Origin: Chamaesiphon sp. 341R_metabat_111 | Lineage (GTDB): Bacteria > Cyanobacteriota > Cyanobacteriia > Cyanobacteriales > Chamaesiphonaceae | Reading direction: 5' to 3' | NCBI GenBank assembly: GCA_025351825.1 | Contig: JANXVE010000080.1 | Span: 1-56,698, forward strand | DNA: 56,698 nucleotides | Part shown: in pieces, positions 1 to 29,607 of the stretch | How positions within the stretch are numbered: the stretch's first letter is position 1 | Layout: each line of letters opens with the position of its first letter | Made by a program: the position numbers and the translations under genes | The notes under the pieces: model-generated | The model's input: the letters and a program-made list of their open reading frames with translations, nothing else | Database searches by the model: none | Told to the model about the DNA's origin: nothing

Positions 1-319
1 AGGCTGTGAGCAAAGTATGAGTTTTGCGAGAGCTGCCACTACCAAGTTCGATCAATTCACAGGCTCCGGTGAGGGCAATGATTTCCGAGACGTAGGTTTC
101 GAGGATTGCTTGCTCGGTGCGGGTGGGATAGTATTCAGGTAGATCGGTAATTTGCTCAAATAGTTCGGAACCTCGATCGTCATAAAAGTACTTACATGGC
201 AAAGTTTTCGGGGTTTGAGTCAATCCCTGAATCACGTCACTACCATCATCGATCTTGGGCAGATCGGTACTGAGATTAATCCATCGAAGTCGATCGGTTG
301 CGGGAATTTGAGTTTGCAT
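1..319 (-). CDS. egtD: EgtD-like L-histidine N-alpha-methyltransferase, N-terminal part (runs off window)
   Basis: The frame opens at ATG 319-317 and stays open to base 2, giving 106 codons. Only the N-terminal third is present because the gene leaves the window at its 3' end. Visible motifs are PCKYFYDDRGSELFEQIT followed by LPEYYPTRTEQAIL, then the SAM-binding start ELIELGSGSSRKTH. This order is typical of EgtD/DUF2260 methyltransferases, which trimethylate histidine to hercynine in ergothioneine synthesis. A related SAM-dependent protein of the same family with another substrate cannot be excluded from this fragment. An EgtB partner would have to lie outside the window. Confidence 0.8.
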   Translation of the reverse strand, partial: MQTQIPATDRLRWINLSTDLPKIDDGSDVIQGLTQTPKTLPCKYFYDDRGSELFEQITDLPEYYPTRTEQAILETYVSEIIALTGACELIELGSGSSRKTHTLLTA

Positions 320-408: not shown

Positions 409-741
409 GTGGGTATTCCCTACTTTCTCGATGCTTGTCTTGGCTATCATCCCCATTTTGCTTACTGGTCGATCGATCCAAATGATCTAACAACTAAGCG
501 AGAAGGGCTTTGGAATGAAGATGGGTACGCTAAAATTAAGGTGACGATTACCTATCGCAACCAATTCAATCCGGTTTATGTAGCTGATGAATATCTGATT
601 AGTGCCCACGTAAACAAGGCTCAATGTGGAGACAACAAAAGAATTTCTGAATCTATGAAGGATGATTTGAGGGCGCGAGGGGCAATTTTTGATGATGCTC
701 CAGGAGATCGACCTGAATCTCGAACTCTAATTCCTCGCTAA
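409..741 (+). CDS. hypothetical protein, 110 aa, GTG start
   Basis: I do not recognise this family. The frame starts at a GTG without a convincing Shine-Dalgarno. No ATG lies upstream before the in-frame stop at 367-369. The product looks soluble and mixed alpha/beta, with an aromatic N-terminal part (PYFLDACLGYHPHFAYWSID) and a charged C-terminus. It lies between the egtD-like gene and the HEPN/DUF262 module. It could be a small accessory gene or the remaining 3' part of a longer decayed gene. Confidence 0.4.
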   Translation: MGIPYFLDACLGYHPHFAYWSIDPNDLTTKREGLWNEDGYAKIKVTITYRNQFNPVYVADEYLISAHVNKAQCGDNKRISESMKDDLRARGAIFDDAPGDRPESRTLIPR

Positions 742-758
742 TATTGATGGAAATTCAG

Positions 759-1802
759 TTATGTCTTGATGTTGTAAATATCCAAGTTCTCACGAGCATT
801 AATATTGAATTTTATGCCTACTTCTGTTTCTAAAGATATATTAATTTCCTGATGTGAAATATCATTAATTTGTAGGCTGACAATTTCAGCCATTTGACAA
901 TCTGCGTTACCAGTAAGAAATAATCGATCTCCTAACTTCAATTTGCTGTTATTAATTCTAGCGACTCCTGCTTGAGGGTTTTTAAACCATTCGCTAATCT
1001 TCCCGATTTTCATAACGTGCCCCTGTTTTTCTTGTTTGAGCAAAAGTTGATAGGTGGCCAACTCAGATAGAGATTCACAGATCATTTCAACAAAGTCGCA
1101 TAGTTGTAACAACTCATCAACACCAAGAATAATATTAATCGAGATCGCATGAGCCGCATTGTTTCGATAGTCTATTAGCTCTCTTAGCAAACCTTCTGCG
1201 GTGTTTTCTTGAATGACATCTCGGATAAAGGTTTTGACATTACGACTATTTTTTACCCAATCCCATCCATTTTGACAAATACCAGCATTTTTTAGCAATT
1301 CATCTAAATCTTCTTTCCGCAAATTGCGATCGTGAAGGATAAATGCATCGGTTAATAGTTCATATGGTTGAGCATCAATAACACCACAATATAGTTTATG
1401 GATCGTTGACTCTAAAGATAACTCATTAAACCTTTGCTTATTTCTCTCTTTCAGTATTCTACTTATATTATCGATATGAGTTTCCTTGATTCGCTCATCT
1501 AAATTAGAGTATTTGGGGACTAATCTCGGTAATTCTTTAATCCATTCTGTGATTAAATCTTCAACAAAACTCTCGTAAATAGCATAAAGTCTAGTTACAG
1601 CCGCACAATTTTCGTAACTAAGCCATTCTCTATCAGTTGGAATGACTTCTATCAATTCTTTAAATAAAGGTGAATGATCGATCTCATTTGCCGCTCTGCT
1701 TGCCAAATCTCTGATCTTTTCATTTAGCTTGATACTTTGACGAATAATGTCTAAATTTGGCTTGATCTTGTCTGACAAATTATAAAAGATTGTCGATCGC
1801 AT
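759..1802 (-). CDS. HEPN (RiboL-PSP / MAE_28990-type) nuclease with C-terminal EF-Tu domain II-like barrel
   Basis: A 347-residue protein. The long alpha-helical part (about 20-260) carries the HEPN R-x4-H signature RNNAAH, with Arg213 and His218, in the context RELIDYRNNAAH. That matches the RiboL-PSP/MAE_28990-like HEPN ribonucleases found in conflict systems. Residues about 263-347 read as a separate small beta domain. It begins KIGKISEWF, continues LKLGDRLFLTG and ends VGIKFN, a pattern like translation-factor domain II (EF-Tu-like) barrels. The ATG lies 2 bases after the stop of the DUF262 gene, so the two are almost certainly co-transcribed. The likely role is an RNase effector in phage defence or a toxin-antitoxin-like system, with the barrel perhaps contacting tRNA or the ribosome. 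The HEPN call is firm from the motif; the barrel call is a pattern match by eye. Confidence 0.72.
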   Translation of the reverse strand: MRSTIFYNLSDKIKPNLDIIRQSIKLNEKIRDLASRAANEIDHSPLFKELIEVIPTDREWLSYENCAAVTRLYAIYESFVEDLITEWIKELPRLVPKYSNLDERIKETHIDNISRILKERNKQRFNELSLESTIHKLYCGVIDAQPYELLTDAFILHDRNLRKEDLDELLKNAGICQNGWDWVKNSRNVKTFIRDVIQENTAEGLLRELIDYRNNAAHAISINIILGVDELLQLCDFVEMICESLSELATYQLLLKQEKQGHVMKIGKISEWFKNPQAGVARINNSKLKLGDRLFLTGNADCQMAEIVSLQINDISHQEINISLETEVGIKFNINARENLDIYNIKT

Positions 1803-1804
1803 AT

Positions 1805-3013
1805 CTAGTCTTTAGCTACACGATCTAGCATTTGACTAAATAGCTCGATCCGCTTTTGAGTACCTGCTTTAGTAGAACCTTCTCCAGTGAATAATTTATA
1901 GTTTGTTTTGTCAGACAGTAACATTTTAGTTGCCTCTATTACTTGTTTTTTTCTTTGAATTAACTTTTCTCTATTATCTAAGTTATAACTACACCCGACC
2001 ATTACCGCATCATAATATTCTTTGTAAGAACGATTCGACCATTCTTGCTTATTAATGTCAAATGGTTTGAATAATTTTTCGCCATAGATGCCATCGGCTA
2101 GGTTTATAGTTTCAGAGAAAATATTTCCTAGAAAATCAATGTCTTCCTGCTTAAAAGTCGTTGTTTTTCTCATATAGCTATCGAGGAAATCTATCTTTCT
2201 ATTTCTAAATTCGCTAGCATGACGGAGCGCAAAGAATCTCAAAATTAATTCGATATCTTCCATTTTTTTGTATAGATTATTATCGATTAACTCTGGATCG
2301 TCATCATGACTAGGAATTCCCCACGCTTTGGTAAAAATGGAATTTCTTGATAGGCTAAATAGCAAATCATTAAAATCACTAGACAATAAACAGTTACGAA
2401 CCTCTTGTTTACTAAGTTTTACACCACCAGTATTGATTCGCTCAAAAGCAATTTGCTTGAGTAAGGCAGCTTCTTCTGGATCGGCAGCAGATTCAGTGAT
2501 TAATGTTATGGTTGAAATCGAACGTCGATCGATACCAGCTTTGATTTGAGATGGCAACTCACTATAGCTAAGACCATTTAGTTCCGTCCAAAATTCTAGC
2601 CCGATTAGCTTAAATTTATTATGATAGAAATCATATAGTGTTGTCAGTCTTTGCTGTCCATCAATGACCTCATACGAGTTGTATCTAACTTCATATAAAA
2701 TGATTGGTAGAACTGGAATATTCATCAAAAAAGATTCTATCAGTCTTGATTTTTTCTCGTCATCCCATCTCTTTCTTCTTTGATACAGAGGTTGAATATT
2801 TAAGTAGTCAGGCTTATCGATCGCATTGACTAAAGTTAGTAATTTCTCTCTGTTCATCTCGGTGATTACTCTTCTCTCACCCTTACTATACTTATCGTTA
2901 ATTTCTGATTCAGAATATGTCGATCGTGTCTTTTCTGCTTTCTCCTTAATCCACATACCTCTTTCGCTAGGTGAAAACATTGTGTCTGAAGGTATGGTTA
3001 ATCCAGTAGCCAT
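1805..3013 (-). CDS. DUF262 (ParB/GmrS-like) domain protein, partner of the HEPN nuclease
   Basis: A 402-residue DUF262 protein. The landmarks are QPLYQRRKRW (about 74-83), the nucleotide-binding DGQQR motif at 118-122 followed by LTTLYDF, and FERINTGGVKLSKQEVRN (190-207). This is the order seen in GmrS-type and other ParB/Srx-fold DUF262 proteins. No HNH (DUF1524/GmrD) nuclease follows, so the HEPN gene directly downstream probably supplies the effector. Known DUF262 proteins include subunits of type IV modification-dependent restriction systems that use NTPs. Here the role is inferred to be sensing or regulating. The promoter must lie in the roughly 60 bases between this start and the tkt terminator. 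Confidence 0.78.
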   Translation of the reverse strand: MATGLTIPSDTMFSPSERGMWIKEKAEKTRSTYSESEINDKYSKGERRVITEMNREKLLTLVNAIDKPDYLNIQPLYQRRKRWDDEKKSRLIESFLMNIPVLPIILYEVRYNSYEVIDGQQRLTTLYDFYHNKFKLIGLEFWTELNGLSYSELPSQIKAGIDRRSISTITLITESAADPEEAALLKQIAFERINTGGVKLSKQEVRNCLLSSDFNDLLFSLSRNSIFTKAWGIPSHDDDPELIDNNLYKKMEDIELILRFFALRHASEFRNRKIDFLDSYMRKTTTFKQEDIDFLGNIFSETINLADGIYGEKLFKPFDINKQEWSNRSYKEYYDAVMVGCSYNLDNREKLIQRKKQVIEATKMLLSDKTNYKLFTGEGSTKAGTQKRIELFSQMLDRVAKD

Positions 3014-3070
3014 GACATTTTTACCTCAAGTTGCTGCTAACCGCGAGCTTTATCCTCATTATACCCAAAT

Positions 3071-3095
3071 GAAAAAGGTGGGCTGATGCCCACCT
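3071..3095 (-). terminator. Rho-independent terminator of tkt
   Basis: Perfect 8-bp inverted repeat AGGTGGGC / GCCCACCT with a TGAT loop (3076-3095). On the minus strand it is followed by five T residues. It lies 25 bases past the tkt stop and upstream of the DUF262 start, so it should insulate the two transcription units. Confidence 0.8.
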
Positions 3096-3119
3096 CGATC
3101 TCAAAATTAAAGTTATTGA

Positions 3120-5132
3120 TTAACCCAAGACTTCTTTCGCTGTTTTCACAACATTATCGACGGTGAAACCGAATTTCTCCATCACAACGCCACCTGGAGC
3201 CGAAGCACCAAATCGATCGATTGTAACCAAACCACCATCGATACCGACAAAGCGGTGCCAACCTTGGCTGCAAGCTGCTTCGACTGCTACTCGTTTGGTG
3301 ACGGATTTAGGTAGGACAGACTCTTTGTAAGCTGCGTCTTGCTCGTCGAATAATTCCCACGATGGCATGGAGACGACGCGGACTTTCTTGCCTTCGGTGG
3401 TGAGCTTTTCGGCGGCGGTGACGCAGAGCATTACTTCGGAGCCAGTACCGATCAGGATGATGTCGGGGGTGCCTGCGGAGTCTACGATCGTGTAAGCTCC
3501 TTTGGCTACGCCAGCGATCGAGGTGCCTGGTAGGTTAGGTAGATTTTGACGGGAGAGGGCGAGGAGAGTCGGATCGGTTTGGTTGGCTTTTTCGATCGCT
3601 ACTTTGTATGCGCCGGATGTTTCGTTGCCGTCGGCGGGACGAATGACGGTGAGGTTCGGAATTGCCCGTAAGGAGGCAATAGTCTCGATCGGTTGGTGCG
3701 TGGGGCCATCTTCACCCTGCCCGACGGAATCGTGAGTCATCACCCAGATTGAACCCGCTTTGGATAGGGCGGAGAGGCGGATGGGTGCGCGCATGTAGTC
3801 AGAGAAGATCAGGAAGGTTGCGCCGTAGGGAATCAAGCCGGAGTTGTGGAGGGCAATCCCGTTACAGATCGCACCCATTGCATGTTCGCGGACACCGAAG
3901 TGGACGTTGCGATTTTGGTACGCACCTTTTTGGAAGTCACCGGAGGTTTTGATTTCGGTGAGGTTGGAGTGGGTGAGGTCAGCGGAACCGCCGATTAAAC
4001 CTGGAAGGACGGCTGCTAGTTTGTTGAGACAGATTTCGGAGTGCTTGCGACTAGCTACTGCGCTATCTGCGGGGGTGTAGGTAGGCAAGACGCTATCCCA
4101 ACCAGCCGGAAGTTTGCGGGAGGTCAAAGATGTGAAATCGGCTGCTTCGGTGGGATATTTGCTGGTGTAGCTGGCTAGAGTCGCATTCCACGCGCTTTCG
4201 GCTTTGGCACCGTTGGCGATCGCTTCGTGCATGTGGGTGACTGCATCAGCAGGCAATTCAAAGGGAGCATATTCCCAGCCGAGGTATTCGCGGGTGAGTT
4301 TGATTTCTGCTTCACCCAAAGCGGCACCGTGAATCCCGGCGGTGTTGGATTTATTGGGGGAACCGTAACCGATGATCGTGGTGACTTTGATCATCGTTGG
4401 TTTGTCGGCGACTTTCTTAGCAGCAGCGATCGCGGCTTCAATTGCAGCTAGATCGGTGTTGCCATCTTTGACGTGGATCGTATGCCAGCCGTAAGCGTCA
4501 AACCGAGCGGATACGTCTTCGGTAAAGGCGACATCGGTGGAGCCATCGATCGAGATATGGTTATCGTCATACAGCACGATCAGTTTACCCAGTCCCCAGT
4601 GTGCCGCGATCGAAGCTGCTTCACCCGAAATTCCTTCCATGTTGCAACCATCACCGACGATCACATAGGTATAGTGGTCAACCAGAGTAGCGTCAGGCTT
4701 ATTAAATTTCGCGGCTAAATGCGCTTCAGCCAGTGCTAAACCAACGCCATTTGCAATCCCTTGACCGAGGGGGCCAGTAGTAACTTCAATTCCAGCAGTT
4801 TCAAAGTTTTCAGGGTGTCCAGGTGTGCTGGAACCCCACTGTCGGAACTGTTTGATATCTTCAATGCTGACGCTATCATATCCGGTGAGATAAAGCAGCG
4901 CGTATTGCAACATCGAACCATGACCAGCCGACAATACAAACCTGTCACGGTTGAACCATTGGGGGTTCTTGGGGTTGTGCTGCATGAATTTTTGCCACAG
5001 CACATACGCCATCGGAGCCGCACCCATTGGTAAACCTGGGTGTCCAGATTTCGCTTTTTCGATCGCATCAACAGCGAGGAAACGAATAGAATTAATAGCA
5101 AGTTGGTCTAAGGATTGAGCAGCTACAGGCAT
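3120..5132 (-). CDS. tkt: transketolase
   Basis: A 670-residue, full-length transketolase (Calvin cycle and pentose phosphate pathway). It transfers two-carbon units between sugar phosphates using thiamine diphosphate. The N-terminus [20 protein letters not shown] with [13 protein letters not shown] is classic. The ThDP/Mg motif is [17 protein letters not shown], the pyrimidine-domain glutamate lies in [16 protein letters not shown], and the C-terminal domain ends normally. The start is ATG 5132. No strong Shine-Dalgarno is visible, which is common in cyanobacteria. It is monocistronic: a terminator follows, and the gene upstream is divergent. Confidence 0.97.
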
Positions 5133-5440
5133 GATATATGTAATTTAAACTACTGACTAGTTTCGGCGCAGGTAGACAAGTGCAGGATTGGTATCGTCGC
5201 ATTTATCATTGCAATTGTTAACTATCATCCCATCTGGTGGAAGGATGAGCAAGAACTTTTAGCTGCACAAATGGCAATAATCACTAAATCAATAGCTAAA
5301 TCCATAAGTTTGCGTTCGATCCGATCTGCTGCGCTATCATCTGTCATCCGCCAGAGCCGCAATCAGCATCGAAAACATGACTCGGCGATCGATTATACTA
5401 AAGTAAGATATTCTTACTTTATGCCGATCGGAGGTTAGAG
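5133..5440. other. divergent intergenic region tkt / abrB-PIN
   Basis: 308 bases without a credible gene. The right end holds the operator/promoter of the toxin-antitoxin pair, described separately. The left part must contain the tkt promoter and 5' leader, but I see no clear -35/-10 pair there. Confidence 0.6.
5394..5435 (+). promoter_or_regulatory. promoter, operator palindrome and RBS of the AbrB-PIN operon
   Basis: A -10-like TATACT (5394-5399) runs directly into a perfect 10-bp inverted repeat, TAAAGTAAGA / TCTTACTTTA (5399-5408 and 5412-5421, 3-base spacer). GGAGGT at 5430-5435 is a strong ribosome binding site for the ATG at 5441. A palindrome over the start of transcription is what an autorepressing AbrB-type antitoxin would bind; that role is inferred. 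Confidence 0.6.
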
Positions 5441-5677
5441 ATGCTTGCCAAGCTAACAGCTAAAAATCAGCTTACTTTACCAAAAAGTATTACCAACGAG
5501 ATCGCGCCAACCGAATATTTTGATATTAAGGTTGAAAATGGGCAAATCATCCTTACACCAGTCAAAATTCACCCCACCGATGCCGTCCGCACTAAATTAG
5601 CAGCTCTAGATCTCAGCGAACAAGATATTCTTGATGCGGTAACTTGGGCACGATCGCCTCAGGATCTGGTGTTATGA
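5441..5677 (+). CDS. AbrB/MazE-type antitoxin (SpoVT-AbrB fold)
   Basis: A 78-residue protein with an N-terminal swapped-hairpin DNA-binding domain: MLAKLTAKNQLTLPKSI, then FDIKVENGQIILTPV. The C-terminal tail (DAVRTKLAALDLSEQDILDAV) would be the toxin-neutralising part. The stop codon overlaps the start of the PIN gene (ATGA), indicating translational coupling. It is expected to neutralise the downstream toxin and to repress its own operon through the palindrome at 5399-5421. Confidence 0.85.
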   Translation: MLAKLTAKNQLTLPKSITNEIAPTEYFDIKVENGQIILTPVKIHPTDAVRTKLAALDLSEQDILDAVTWARSPQDLVL

Positions 5678-6093
5678 CACAGCCGATCCGAGCTGTAATT
5701 GATACCAATATTCTGCTGTCCGCACTAGTTTTCAGTAGCGGTAGCTTGAGTCGATTTCGTCAGCTCTGGCAAAATGAAGCTTTTAAGCCACTAGTTTCCA
5801 AGCCAACCGTGACTGAGCTGATCCGAGTGCTAGCTTATCCTAAATTCAAGCTGACCCCGATCGAACGAGAGGACTTACTGGCAGACTATTTACCCTATTG
5901 TGAGACGGTACCGCTGCCGATCGAGCTGCCTCAAATCCCACCATGTCGAGATCCTTATGATGAGCCATTTCTACAGCTAGCACTGTTTGGGCAAGCGGAA
6001 TATCTAGTAACTGGAGATCGCGATTTATTAAGTCTTGCAGATGCTTTCGATCGTCCGATTGTCACTGCTACACATTTTTTAGATCTGTTTTAA
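5674..6093 (+). CDS. PIN-domain toxin (putative ribonuclease, VapC-like)
   Basis: A 139-residue PIN-domain protein. The acidic cluster is visible as IDTNILLSAL at the N-terminus, TVTELIRVL in the middle, CRDPYDEPFLQLAL, and YLVTGDRDLLSL near the end. These supply the conserved Asp/Glu residues for metal-dependent RNA cleavage. The ATG at 5674 was chosen because it overlaps the antitoxin stop as ATGA; a longer reading of the frame starts inside the antitoxin gene. It belongs to the 'putative toxin-antitoxin system toxin component, PIN family' type. The RNA target is unknown. Confidence 0.85.
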   Translation: MTQPIRAVIDTNILLSALVFSSGSLSRFRQLWQNEAFKPLVSKPTVTELIRVLAYPKFKLTPIEREDLLADYLPYCETVPLPIELPQIPPCRDPYDEPFLQLALFGQAEYLVTGDRDLLSLADAFDRPIVTATHFLDLF

Positions 6094-6127
6094 TTTGTGA
6101 GGAGACGGACAGATTTGCTTTGTATTA

Positions 6128-6180
6128 GAGCCTAAAGCCTAAAAGCTAAAGCCGAAAGCCTTTCCTAAAGCCTTTATTAA
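6128..6180. repeat. heptanucleotide STRR cluster (CCTAAAG)
   Basis: Degenerate tandem copies of CCTAAAG/GCCTAAA in the spacer between the PIN gene and the TerB-like gene. The same short tandem repeat recurs at 7451-7495, 11180-11330, 46264-46294 and 55395-55435. Short tandemly repeated sequences of this kind are typical of cyanobacterial genomes. Confidence 0.7.
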
Positions 6181-6254
6181 AAATCATCTCTATCTCTTCC
6201 CTTTCCCCCTACTATCTGGTATTACTAGCGACAGGATAGTCGATCGCACAAATT

Positions 6255-6737
6255 ATGAACATGCCAAAATACGATAGTATCTTCAATTCTGAAGAAGAGT
6301 ATACCGAAGAGCCATTGAATGAAGCTGAGGGTTTGGCATCGATCGTGCTAATTGCTGCGCTGGCAGATAATCCTAAGGATTTGGTCGCGCCGGATTTATT
6401 TCTAGATATCCTGGCGGATTTTGATTTATATGTAGAGTATTCTGAAGAAGATTTGTTGTCGATGGTCGATCGATTGACGGGTATTGCCGCAAGTTATGGA
6501 CTAGGAGCATTATTTAATGCTGCGGATGAAGCGATTCCTGATGATTTGGTGCCTGATGCTTATGCTGCGGCGATCTTGGCAAAGATGGATCCTGATACTG
6601 GGGAAATTCCGGCTCGATCGCAGGTATTTTTGAAGGAGCTACAAGCTGTGATGGATATTGATGATGAGGAGGCTGCTGAAGTGGTGGCGGAGGTTCAGAA
6701 GAGTTTTGAGTCGGGTACAGATAGTGGGAATGCTTGA
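6255..6737 (+). CDS. TerB-like domain protein
   Basis: A 160-residue acidic, all-helical protein. The pattern EGLASIVLIAALAD (about 25-38), LADFDLYVEYSEEDLLSMVD and DPDTGEIPARSQVFLKELQ, ending MDIDDEEAAEVV, fits the TerB / tellurite-resistance-type helical fold common in cyanobacteria. No membrane segment or signal peptide is visible. The function is unknown; TerB-like domains bind metals or act as stress and scaffold modules in other proteins. It ends just before the hairpin repeat at 6764-6854 and faces the chemotaxis operon. Confidence 0.6.
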   Translation: MNMPKYDSIFNSEEEYTEEPLNEAEGLASIVLIAALADNPKDLVAPDLFLDILADFDLYVEYSEEDLLSMVDRLTGIAASYGLGALFNAADEAIPDDLVPDAYAAAILAKMDPDTGEIPARSQVFLKELQAVMDIDDEEAAEVVAEVQKSFESGTDSGNA

Positions 6738-6763
6738 GATTTAGATGGTCGGCAGTGCTAGTG

Positions 6764-6854
6764 AAAGCGTAGATCTCTGGGTACCCATGAAGGGCACCCC
6801 TACAGGTTAATTATGTAGGGGTGTCCCTTATGGGTACCCAAAGATCGACGCTTT
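6764..6854. repeat. long hairpin repeat, copy A
   Basis: A near-perfect inverted repeat. The left arm begins AAGCGTAGATCTCTGGGTAC and runs through AAGGGCACCCCTACA; the right arm is its complement, ending GACGCTT. The same unit occurs at 17355-17616 (interrupted), 24349-24431 and 39599-39670. This copy lies between two convergent genes, where the hairpin could act as a bidirectional terminator. It contains no ORF, so it would be a non-autonomous (MITE/REP-like) element. Confidence 0.8.
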
Positions 6855-6900
6855 TACCAATATATTTTGATTGCTAGCCATTTGAATCAGTCACTATTGA

Positions 6901-7446
6901 CTAATTCAAATGGCTGACAAGCTGTTTATTTCCTGCTGGTTTCATAATCGAGCGATCGAGTCCCAGCAACAAGATTTGCAATGGTTCTAGACCATTTTCT
7001 TGGGGAACGATCGCCATGTGGCTGACAAAGCTGAGTTGATTGACTTCGCGATAGGCGAGGGGAATCTCGCGAATCATCTCAGGTTCGATATCGAGTAGTT
7101 CGGGGGCGGTTTTAACTGGTAAGCCGCAGAGTTCGCCAGCTTGAGTATGAAATAAAATTAGGAATTTGGAAGAATCTTGCTGCGGATCGATCGTGGTGAA
7201 TTTTTGGCGCAAATCTACAATGGTGAGATTTTGGTTTCCAAAATTAATCATCCCAATTCCATCTTTGAGAATAGCTCGATCTGTCGGATACACGATCGCT
7301 TTCTCAACTGCTTCGACGGGTAATGCAAACCGATATTGAGACATGGATGTCTGTTCGATATTCGCCAGTGAGAATACGACTGTGCGAATGGTATCAGTAT
7401 CATCGTTGATGCTGGATAATCGTTTGGGGATGGGGGTGGTTAGCAT
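6901..7446 (-). CDS. CheW-like adaptor protein (second copy)
   Basis: A 181-residue CheW-domain protein. QYRFALPVEAVEKAIVYP, MINFGNQNLTIVDLRQKF and CGLPVKTAPELLDIEPEMIR are the usual strands and loops of the two-barrel CheW fold that couples receptors to CheA. It is the last gene of the chemotaxis cluster, 190 bases after the cheA gene across a repeat-filled spacer. The first CheW is at 14878-15471. Two CheW proteins in one array may allow different receptor/kinase pairings. Confidence 0.85.
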   Translation of the reverse strand: MLTTPIPKRLSSINDDTDTIRTVVFSLANIEQTSMSQYRFALPVEAVEKAIVYPTDRAILKDGIGMINFGNQNLTIVDLRQKFTTIDPQQDSSKFLILFHTQAGELCGLPVKTAPELLDIEPEMIREIPLAYREVNQLSFVSHMAIVPQENGLEPLQILLLGLDRSIMKPAGNKQLVSHLN

Positions 7447-27710: not shown

Positions 27711-29006
27711 CTAGATACTCAGACGTTGATAGATCTCATCGAGGTGCTTGAGATGTTGAGTAGGATCGAAACAGTGCTCGATCTCCGCTGGAGTCAGATG
27801 TTCAGTCACGCGGGGGTCGCTGGCGGTTAGTTTGTGGAAGTCTCCACCTGGGACATTCCAGACGGCCATCGCGTTGGATTGGACGATCGAGTATGCTGTT
27901 TCTCGATCGAGTCCTTTACCCACCAATGCTAGCAATACACCCTGGCTGAAAACCACACCACCATAGCAGTTGAGGTTCCGTGCCATGTTTTCGGGATAGA
28001 TCAGCAGATTTTTGATCAGATTGGTGGTTTCGACCAGCATGAAATGGGTGATGATGCAGGAGTCGGGCATACACACCCGCTCGACTGAGCTATGGGAAAT
28101 GTCCCGTTCGTGCCAGAGGGCAACGTTTTCGAGAGCGGCAATGGCGTTACCGCGCAAGATCCGCGCCATACCAGTTAAACGTTCGGAGCGAATTGGATTG
28201 CGCTTGTGGGGCATGGCGGAGGAGCCTTTCTGTCCCTTGGAGAAGAATTCTTCTACTTCTAAGACATCAGTTTTCTGAAGGTTGCGGATCTCGACCGCAA
28301 ATCGCTCCATACTGGCACCAATTAGGGCGAGGACTTGGGCGAATTCGGCGTGAATGTCACGGGAGATCACTTGGGTCGAAGCTGTGTCTGGAGTCAAGCC
28401 TAGCTTCTGACAAGCGATCGCCTCTGCCCGTGGTTCGATATTTGCGTAGGTACCGACAGCACCCGAAATTTTCCCCACTGCAATAGTCTGACGCACTCGC
28501 ACCAATCGATCGCGGTTCCGCAGCATTTCAGCTAGCCAACCAGCGAGTTTGAAGCCAAAAGTAATCGGCTCGGCATGAATCCCGTGGGAACGCCCGATCA
28601 TCACCGTATTGCGGTGCTTTTGAGCTTGATACCGAATCGCTTGAATTGTTTCTTCCAAGCGGGTGAGCAACACATCGACACTTGCCACCATTTGGAGAGC
28701 CAGCGCAGTGTCCAACACATCCGAGCTAGTCATGCCAAGGTGAATATACCGCCCAGCCGCACCAACGTACTCATTTACATTGGTCAGAAATGCAATCACA
28801 TCGTGACGGACTTCAGCCTCGATCTCTAAAATCCGATCGACATCAAATTTAGCTTTTGCCTTAATCTCATCAACGGCTGCTTGGGGAATATGTCCCAGTT
28901 CCGCCTGGGCTTCACAGACGGCAATTTCTACTTGCAGCCAAGTCTGAAACTTATAGGTATCCGTCCAAATTTCGCCCATTTCAGGCAGAGTATAGCGTTC
29001 GATCAC
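27711..29006 (-). CDS. purB: adenylosuccinate lyase
   Basis: A 431-residue enzyme for two steps of purine synthesis, cleaving SAICAR and adenylosuccinate. It has the fumarase-superfamily signature SSAMPHKRNPIRSE, plus TSSDVLDTALALQM and SHGIHAEPITFG. I chose GTG 29006 (VIERYTLPEMGEIW) because family members begin at this point. An alternative TTG at 29027 would be only about 8 bases from the -10 box, too close for a leader. Confidence 0.94.
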   Translation of the reverse strand: MIERYTLPEMGEIWTDTYKFQTWLQVEIAVCEAQAELGHIPQAAVDEIKAKAKFDVDRILEIEAEVRHDVIAFLTNVNEYVGAAGRYIHLGMTSSDVLDTALALQMVASVDVLLTRLEETIQAIRYQAQKHRNTVMIGRSHGIHAEPITFGFKLAGWLAEMLRNRDRLVRVRQTIAVGKISGAVGTYANIEPRAEAIACQKLGLTPDTASTQVISRDIHAEFAQVLALIGASMERFAVEIRNLQKTDVLEVEEFFSKGQKGSSAMPHKRNPIRSERLTGMARILRGNAIAALENVALWHERDISHSSVERVCMPDSCIITHFMLVETTNLIKNLLIYPENMARNLNCYGGVVFSQGVLLALVGKGLDRETAYSIVQSNAMAVWNVPGGDFHKLTASDPRVTEHLTPAEIEHCFDPTQHLKHLDEIYQRLSI

Positions 29007-29034
29007 GAGTCCGTCACTTGAATACAACTACTTT

Positions 29035-29043
29035 ATTGTATCA
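29035..29043 (-). promoter_or_regulatory. extended -10 promoter of purB
   Basis: On the minus strand the sequence reads TGATACAAT, an extended -10 (TGn + TACAAT). Transcription would then start near 29028, about 22 bases before the GTG start. No -35 is recognisable in the G-rich DNA upstream, which fits an extended -10 promoter. Confidence 0.4.
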
Positions 29044-29044
29044 G

Positions 29045-29103
29045 GGCGGGGGGCATGGGAGCACGGGGGCGCGGGAGCACGGGGGCGAGGGGGCATGGGA
29101 GCG
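29045..29103. repeat. G-rich low-complexity repeat (GGGAGCACGGGGGC)
   Basis: Tandem variants of GGGCATGGGAGCACGG / GGGAGCACGGGGGC. A related block (GGGAGCGTGGGAGC and CCCCGTGCCCCCGTGCC) lies at 19205-19290, over the presumed leader of the putative BMC-like gene. Confidence 0.7.
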
Positions 29104-29169
29104 ATGGTAGATTTACTATTCACTATTCACCGAAACATTGGCAATGTTGTTTTAACCTAAGAGCTAAGA

Positions 29170-29607
29170 TTACTTGCCCCGATTCATTTTCCGGCGGCGT
29201 ACCTTAGCTGCGACTGTAGCTCGATCGACTGGAAAACCCGCAACCGAAATTTCTTGATATTGCCGCTCTGCTTCTAATTTCTTTAGCTCAGTGTAGTCAA
29301 CCCACACGATGCAGTTCACTGGACAAGTGTCGATCGCTTCTTGGATCGTATCTTCGAGATCGCCATCTTGACGAGCTACTCGCGCTCTGCCATGATCTGG
29401 CTCGATAAAAAATGTATTCCGCGCAGTGTGAGCGCAATGAAGACAACCGATACAGGTCATCTCATCGACATATACGCCCTTTTGTCGCCATACCCCACCT
29501 AGTTCTGGCTCGAATCCAGAGCGATCTTCCGCGTCTCGCAAGAAGCCGCCCAGTTCTGGCTCAAATCCAGATTGGTTAGAATCTATTGGTGGGGTGAAAT
29601 CACTCAC
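29170..29607 (-). CDS. 4Fe-4S ferredoxin-like protein
   Basis: A 145-residue protein. Cys52-x2-Cys55-x2-Cys58 (CIGCLHC) and Cys95-Pro (CPVNC) supply one [4Fe-4S] cluster; the usual second set of cysteines is absent. This is a conserved cyanobacterial/plastid ferredoxin type of unclear partner. The N-terminus contains the 9-residue unit SGFEPELGG twice (13-21 and 30-38), the product of a 51-base duplication. It lies 3 bases downstream of ycf35 in the same operon. Confidence 0.85.
   Translation of the reverse strand: MSDFTPPIDSNQSGFEPELGGFLRDAEDRSGFEPELGGVWRQKGVYVDEMTCIGCLHCAHTARNTFFIEPDHGRARVARQDGDLEDTIQEAIDTCPVNCIVWVDYTELKKLEAERQYQEISVAGFPVDRATVAAKVRRRKMNRGK

Follow-up and report, generated by a model that had tools for sequence, protein, structure and literature searches.

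What a predicted RNA-cutting enzyme gains from a domain shaped like that of a translation factor is the question raised by a gene near the start of the window, which is here the whole 56,698-nucleotide stretch of Chamaesiphon sp. DNA that was analysed. A first-pass annotation had proposed that this gene encodes a HEPN nuclease fused to a barrel resembling domain II of EF-Tu, and had read the fusion as a pointer to tRNA or the translation machinery. Our analysis upheld the fusion, with profile matches to HEPN families in the N-terminal part and a predicted barrel at the C-terminus whose fold resembles those of U32_C, EF-Tu, eIF5B, eRF3 and SelB. It also identified a DUF262/GmrSD_N partner gene, barrel-free relatives and mobile-element contexts, all absent from that annotation. 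The features of the locus are collected in Table 1.

Table 1. Features of the HEPN locus in the window, with the evidence for each.
Feature	Position	Strand	Evidence
HEPN protein ORF, 347 aa, stop included	759..1802	-	PF18735 and PF18737 matches
HEPN domain, residues 63-248	1059..1616	-	PF18735 match; all-helical in model
HEPN RX4H motif RNNAAH, residues 213-218	1149..1166	-	Family alignment
C-terminal beta-barrel, residues 263-347, translation-factor domain-II-like / U32_C-like (predicted)	762..1016	-	AlphaFold2, Foldseek, VIA-align; kept in relatives
DUF262/GmrSD_N partner protein, 402 aa, directly upstream of HEPN gene	1805..3013	-	PF03235, PADLOC
DGQQR nucleotide-pocket motif of DUF262 protein	2648..2662	-	Read from sequence
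Terminator-like hairpin after transketolase gene	3075..3096	-	Pattern scan; weak

The HEPN protein and its DUF262 partner

On its profile matches, the window protein is a member of the RiboL-PSP/MAE_28990 HEPN family, scoring well above the curated cut-offs of both PF18735 (E 4.9e-17; 62.9 bits against 28.4) and PF18737 (E 1.3e-16; 61.9 bits against 26.8). It is predicted to be an RNA-cutting enzyme with an RX4H site, in which R213, N214, A217 and H218 were invariant among 45 aligned members. The last 90 or so residues received no assignment in the Pfam search.

The partner protein matched PF03235 (GmrSD_N; E 4.6e-28, 99.1 bits) and the PADLOC profiles NsnA (1.4e-63) and PD-T4-2_A (2.5e-34), and the DG.QR pattern to which its pocket motif belongs was found in 44/44 DUF262 partners checked. 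Pfam searches identified no DUF1524 HNH nuclease domain in either the DUF262 or the HEPN protein. The DUF262 stop codon and the HEPN start codon are 2 nt apart in the window, and across 69 loci of relatives this gap was 6 nt in 44 loci, 2 nt in 6 and usually within 20 nt. A DUF262/GmrSD_N gene lay upstream on the same strand at 67 of these 69 loci, the remaining two being at contig edges. In the window, the weakly supported terminator-like hairpin would set the transketolase gene apart from the DUF262-HEPN unit, one such hairpin being found where 1.6 were expected by chance.

Predicted fold of the C-terminal barrel

AlphaFold2 models were built from family alignments of 45 sequences for both the barrel and the full protein. 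Modelled alone, the barrel was all-beta and not helical (pLDDT 91.0, pTM 0.81), and in the full-length model (pLDDT 93.3, pTM 0.91) the strands spanned residues 263-345, following a helical HEPN part with one long helix. Residues 263-347 are predicted with high confidence to form a closed beta-barrel, and their position agrees with that given in the first-pass annotation.

In a Foldseek search of the barrel against the PDB, the top match was to a Geobacillus U32 peptidase in its C-terminal domain (4he5 and 4he6; E 4.4e-4 and 5.7e-4), with EF-Tu, eIF5B, IF2 and archaeal EF1A as the next matches. VIA-align comparisons of the predicted model gave a Z of 12.0 against 4he6 (rmsd 2.2 over 85 residues) and of up to 11.5 over 80-84 residues against translation-factor domain II (S. 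pombe eRF3, i.e. eRF3/Sup35, 11.5; eIF5B 11.3; EF-Tu 11.3; SelB 10.6), where models without a clear match typically reach a best Z of 7-8. An independent search of a viral structure library returned mostly giant-virus translation factors (IF2/EF-Tu/eIF5B) as top matches, and barrel matches likewise filled the structure-search lists for the HEPN protein. Judged from the model, the barrel is of the same fold as translation-factor domain II and U32_C, and the EF-Tu/SelB/IF2-type matches anticipated by the first-pass annotation were recovered.

The profile match to the EF-Tu domain 2 family that it had also anticipated did not materialize, as single-sequence Pfam searches of the window protein and of sets of 22 and 45 members found no GTP_EFTU_D2 (PF03144) match. 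Kinship of the barrel with domain II therefore rests on predicted fold and not on sequence. PF16325 (Peptidase_U32_C) did not match the window barrel and matched 2/22 relatives marginally (best E 0.0048). Profile-profile comparison by hhalign gave weak raw scores against U32_C (22.1) and pooled EF domain II (24.1), each above 60/60 column-shuffled decoys (maximum 17.6 and 15.9, respectively); the EF-G-only profile gave no signal above decoys, and the score against an EF-Tu-only profile was close to that of the reversed profile. A search of PDB sequences with the barrel profile returned only chance matches.

The barrel resembles translation-factor domain II in its G-D turn and V-G strand pattern and is joined to HEPN only, with no translational GTPase domain in the window protein. 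The EF-Tu residues that hold A76 of tRNA were mapped onto the barrel by hand alignment, in which the register of the first strand is uncertain, and were found replaced; the barrel's net charge averaged approximately -0.7, near neutral and not basic. Both results argue against the barrel as a literal copy of EF-Tu. The reading of the first-pass annotation was retained in part: a HEPN protein with a domain-II-like barrel is present, whereas binding of the barrel to aminoacyl-tRNA ends or the ribosome is a possibility to which the mapped pocket residues and the charge lend no support, and the U32 C-terminal domain uses this fold too.

Distribution and the two architectures

Relatives were found in 28/386 genomes of the phylum, a few decayed fragments included, and the 69 loci from the species collection were nearly all cyanobacterial. 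The barrel profile hit nothing but these HEPN proteins and remnants of them, apart from one chance match, a candidate in another genome (E 5e-4) that was rejected because it sits in an unrelated coiled-coil-like protein. In 146 genomes, the PF18735 family also comprises shorter proteins, most of about 205-265 aa, that stop approximately 45 residues past the RX4H motif and lack the barrel. The members scoring best against the Pfam HEPN models for RiboL-PSP/MAE_28990 end at the same distance from the motif.

A tree computed from the HEPN part placed the barrel carriers to the same side of one branch (bootstrap 92%, SH-aLRT 57, with some long branches), and a DUF262 neighbour was found at 13/19 of the short loci in this tree. 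As barrel-free HEPN relatives keep DUF262, the barrel is dispensable for DUF262 pairing and is an add-on to a known DUF262-HEPN module. The simplest reading of these sequence comparisons is that the barrel was gained once, onto a pre-existing pair, and by the same comparisons it marks one branch of the RiboL-PSP/MAE_28990 family, comprising cyanobacteria, a few proteobacteria and temperate phages of Vibrio. Decayed remnants were observed at two loci, and at one of these the first part of DUF262 is joined directly to the last part of the barrel, as though everything between them had been lost by deletion.

With a mean pairwise identity of 0.44, against 0.54 for the HEPN core, the barrel is evolving more rapidly. 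Divergence of the HEPN core tracked that of DUF262 above background (partial correlation ~0.30), while barrel divergence beyond the HEPN core did not (~0.03), a comparison that is suggestive only, since the sequences are related and the barrel is the faster-evolving part.

Plasmids, phages and genomic neighbours

Barrel-type HEPN genes with a DUF262 partner were identified on a conjugative Shewanella baltica plasmid, in a Thiobacillus MAG and on the 8.2-kb mobilizable plasmid NZ_CP034332.1 of Tabrizicola piscis, where the pair lies beside a DNA methyltransferase. The Tabrizicola barrel was recognised by its alignment pattern alone, the barrel profile not reporting this protein. The row of methyltransferase, DUF262 and HEPN genes (2367-6936) fills over half of the plasmid.

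Searches of phage records with the window protein, and a scan of viral contigs, found no relatives; the same phage records searched with the Shewanella relative gave three matches. In phages of Vibrio cyclitrophicus that have an annotated 186-type integrase, and in one case also an Apl annotation, the DUF262-HEPN pair adjoins the CI repressor (3132-5403 in PQ189381.1), the partner being of the GmrSD_N type and the HEPN C-terminus matching the barrel profile at 16 bits. This position fits that of a phage-borne defence cargo gene. Neighbours of the relatives' loci were mostly not recognisable defence genes, and besides DUF262 the recognisable shared ones look like ordinary, lineage-specific genes.

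Comparison with known systems

A 2013 paper already described this HEPN family together with the DUF262/ParB partner and the methylase link (Anantharaman 2013, PMC3710099), and the window pair resembles the MAE_28990 and RiboL-PSP families in its HEPN domain, RX4H motif and operon with a DUF262/ParB-like gene. The DNA methyltransferase listed there as a partner of MAE_28990 is also found with the Tabrizicola copy. A text search of that paper found no mention of EF-Tu or a translation-factor domain, and no description of a HEPN fused to a translation-factor barrel was found in the open-licence papers searched, in keeping with the remark of the first-pass annotation that no characterised HEPN toxin was known to carry it. 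The DUF262-HEPN pairing is already known, whereas the barrel fusion appears to be undescribed. The papers searched likewise gave no RNase, toxicity or defence assay of a barrel-bearing member.

PD-T4-2, composed of a DUF262 protein and a PF18735 HEPN (PMC10952713), protects E. coli against T4 both natively and in K-12 (Vassallo 2022, PMC9519451). The window partner shares its A-subunit profile, as given above, but the PADLOC PD-T4-2_B profile matched neither the window HEPN protein nor anything in the rest of the genome, and with 168 positions it has no room for a barrel. In GmrSD, BrxU and SspE, a nuclease is controlled by DUF262 domains that bind nucleotides or hydrolyse them (PMC10952713). 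The type IV restriction systems GmrSD and BrxU have in common with the window partner a GmrSD_N (DUF262) domain with the DG.QR motif; they differ in their DUF1524 HNH nuclease, in place of which the window pair has a separate HEPN protein as putative effector.

Peptidase_U32_C, the closest solved fold to the barrel, is also the C-terminal add-on (PF16325) of TrhP, a U32-peptidase-type RNA hydroxylase that modifies tRNA (PMC6599085), although the window protein has no U32 catalytic domain and its family matches U32_C in sequence only marginally. Domain II of EF-Tu, IF2/eIF5B, eRF3 and SelB (PF03144) has the barrel fold in common with the window HEPN and differs in the GTPase domain, Pfam match and mapped A76-pocket residues discussed above. 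In the type III-A CoCoNuT defence systems, HEPN RNases occur together with an OB-fold that finds its best structural match in EF-Tu domain II (PMC11090510), but there the EF-Tu-like fold belongs to CnuH of a McrBC-type system and is separate from the HEPN protein, whereas in the window the two are fused. A precedent among immune nucleases is Cas12a3, in which a tRNA-loading domain contacts the tRNA region also engaged by EF-Tu (PMC12851939); it is an unrelated RuvC nuclease with a CRISPR trigger.

Proposed function and alternatives

We tentatively propose, with slightly less than even confidence, that DUF262-HEPN is a two-gene immunity module in which DUF262 would be the sensor, HEPN the RNase effector and the barrel a guide to the translation apparatus. 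The assignment of sensor and effector is made by analogy with GmrSD, BrxU, SspE and PD-T4-2. The DUF262/GmrSD_N protein would serve as a nucleotide-driven sensor and switch, recognising a sign of infection and licensing the HEPN protein, an RNase acting through the invariant RX4H site. The added barrel would act in substrate guidance, taking the RNase to the translation apparatus, with the tRNA acceptor end or the ribosome as its likeliest target, and the activated RNase would shut down translation and thereby stop the phage.

The gene pair, the invariant catalytic motif, the barrel fold as a prediction, the confinement of the barrel to a single branch and the occurrence of the module on plasmids and in genomes of temperate phages are shown by the present analysis. 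By analogy with the systems above, the module is probably anti-phage, and RNase activity and control by DUF262 may be expected on the same grounds; the predicted fold suggests an attack on the protein-making machinery, with tRNA or the ribosome as the barrel's target being the least certain element. A narrower form, in which the barrel loads the tRNA acceptor end (or the A site) and a DUF262-gated HEPN RNase grips tRNA as a translation factor would and trims or cuts it during infection, seems to us rather unlikely to be correct. If it were, this would be a HEPN immune effector with its own translation-factor domain. Bacterial immunity is increasingly recognised to act on tRNA and ribosomes. 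In the literature searched, no description of the substrates of DUF262-HEPN pairs was found. A translation-factor-type domain on an effector offers a specific and easily testable prediction of its target, and the short barrel-free relatives provide a natural control for barrel function.

The barrel could instead be a docking or oligomerisation domain that binds DUF262 or a second HEPN and controls activation, with no role at tRNA or the ribosome. Domain II, being small and versatile, binds proteins too, the window barrel is near neutral and without the mapped EF-Tu pocket, and DUF262 adjoins every barrel-bearing gene whose contig extends far enough. We consider this somewhat unlikely, given that barrel-free HEPN relatives have the same kind of DUF262 partner and that the divergence of the barrel, once that of the HEPN core is taken into account, does not follow DUF262. 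As the barrel is dispensable for pairing and its divergence does not track that of DUF262, a substrate-side role is favoured. Bait is a further conceivable function, whereby the barrel would mimic domain II of EF-Tu or IF2, sense a translation-factor-binding phage protein and trigger the HEPN RNase. The T4 Gol peptide, EF-Tu and the Lit protease form a known precedent for a phage protein binding EF-Tu; the EF-Tu, eIF5B and eRF3 domains II among the closest folds and the faster evolution of the barrel would fit as well. DUF262 already supplies a likely sensor, however, and the mapped pocket residues are not mimicked, making bait an improbable function.

Similarly low is the probability we give to the view that the two genes serve mainly in toxin-antitoxin function or plasmid maintenance rather than in phage defence, with DUF262 as antitoxin. 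A two-gene operon with a toxin-like RNase, its presence on plasmids and the decayed copies of the locus would be expected of such a pair, but the gene order, with a DUF262 protein of about 400 aa and an NTPase-type motif preceding HEPN, the location next to CI in a temperate phage and the experimentally anti-phage activity of the related PD-T4-2 (PMC9519451) all speak against this reading.

Other observations in the window and source genome

An ORF of 110 aa at 409-741 (+), convergent with the HEPN gene, had no Pfam match, and overlapping small genes at 5441-6093 (+) resemble by eye an AbrB-type antitoxin and a PIN-type toxin. Elsewhere in the source genome, contig C32 (~28718-29284) encodes another HEPN protein, a short one belonging to the same Pfam family, next to a ParA/Soj-like ATPase gene, an arrangement resembling the MAE_18760-ParA dyad described in 2013 (PMC3710099). 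Window positions 1-141 recur identically on contig C112 of this assembly and may reflect an overlap of contig ends.
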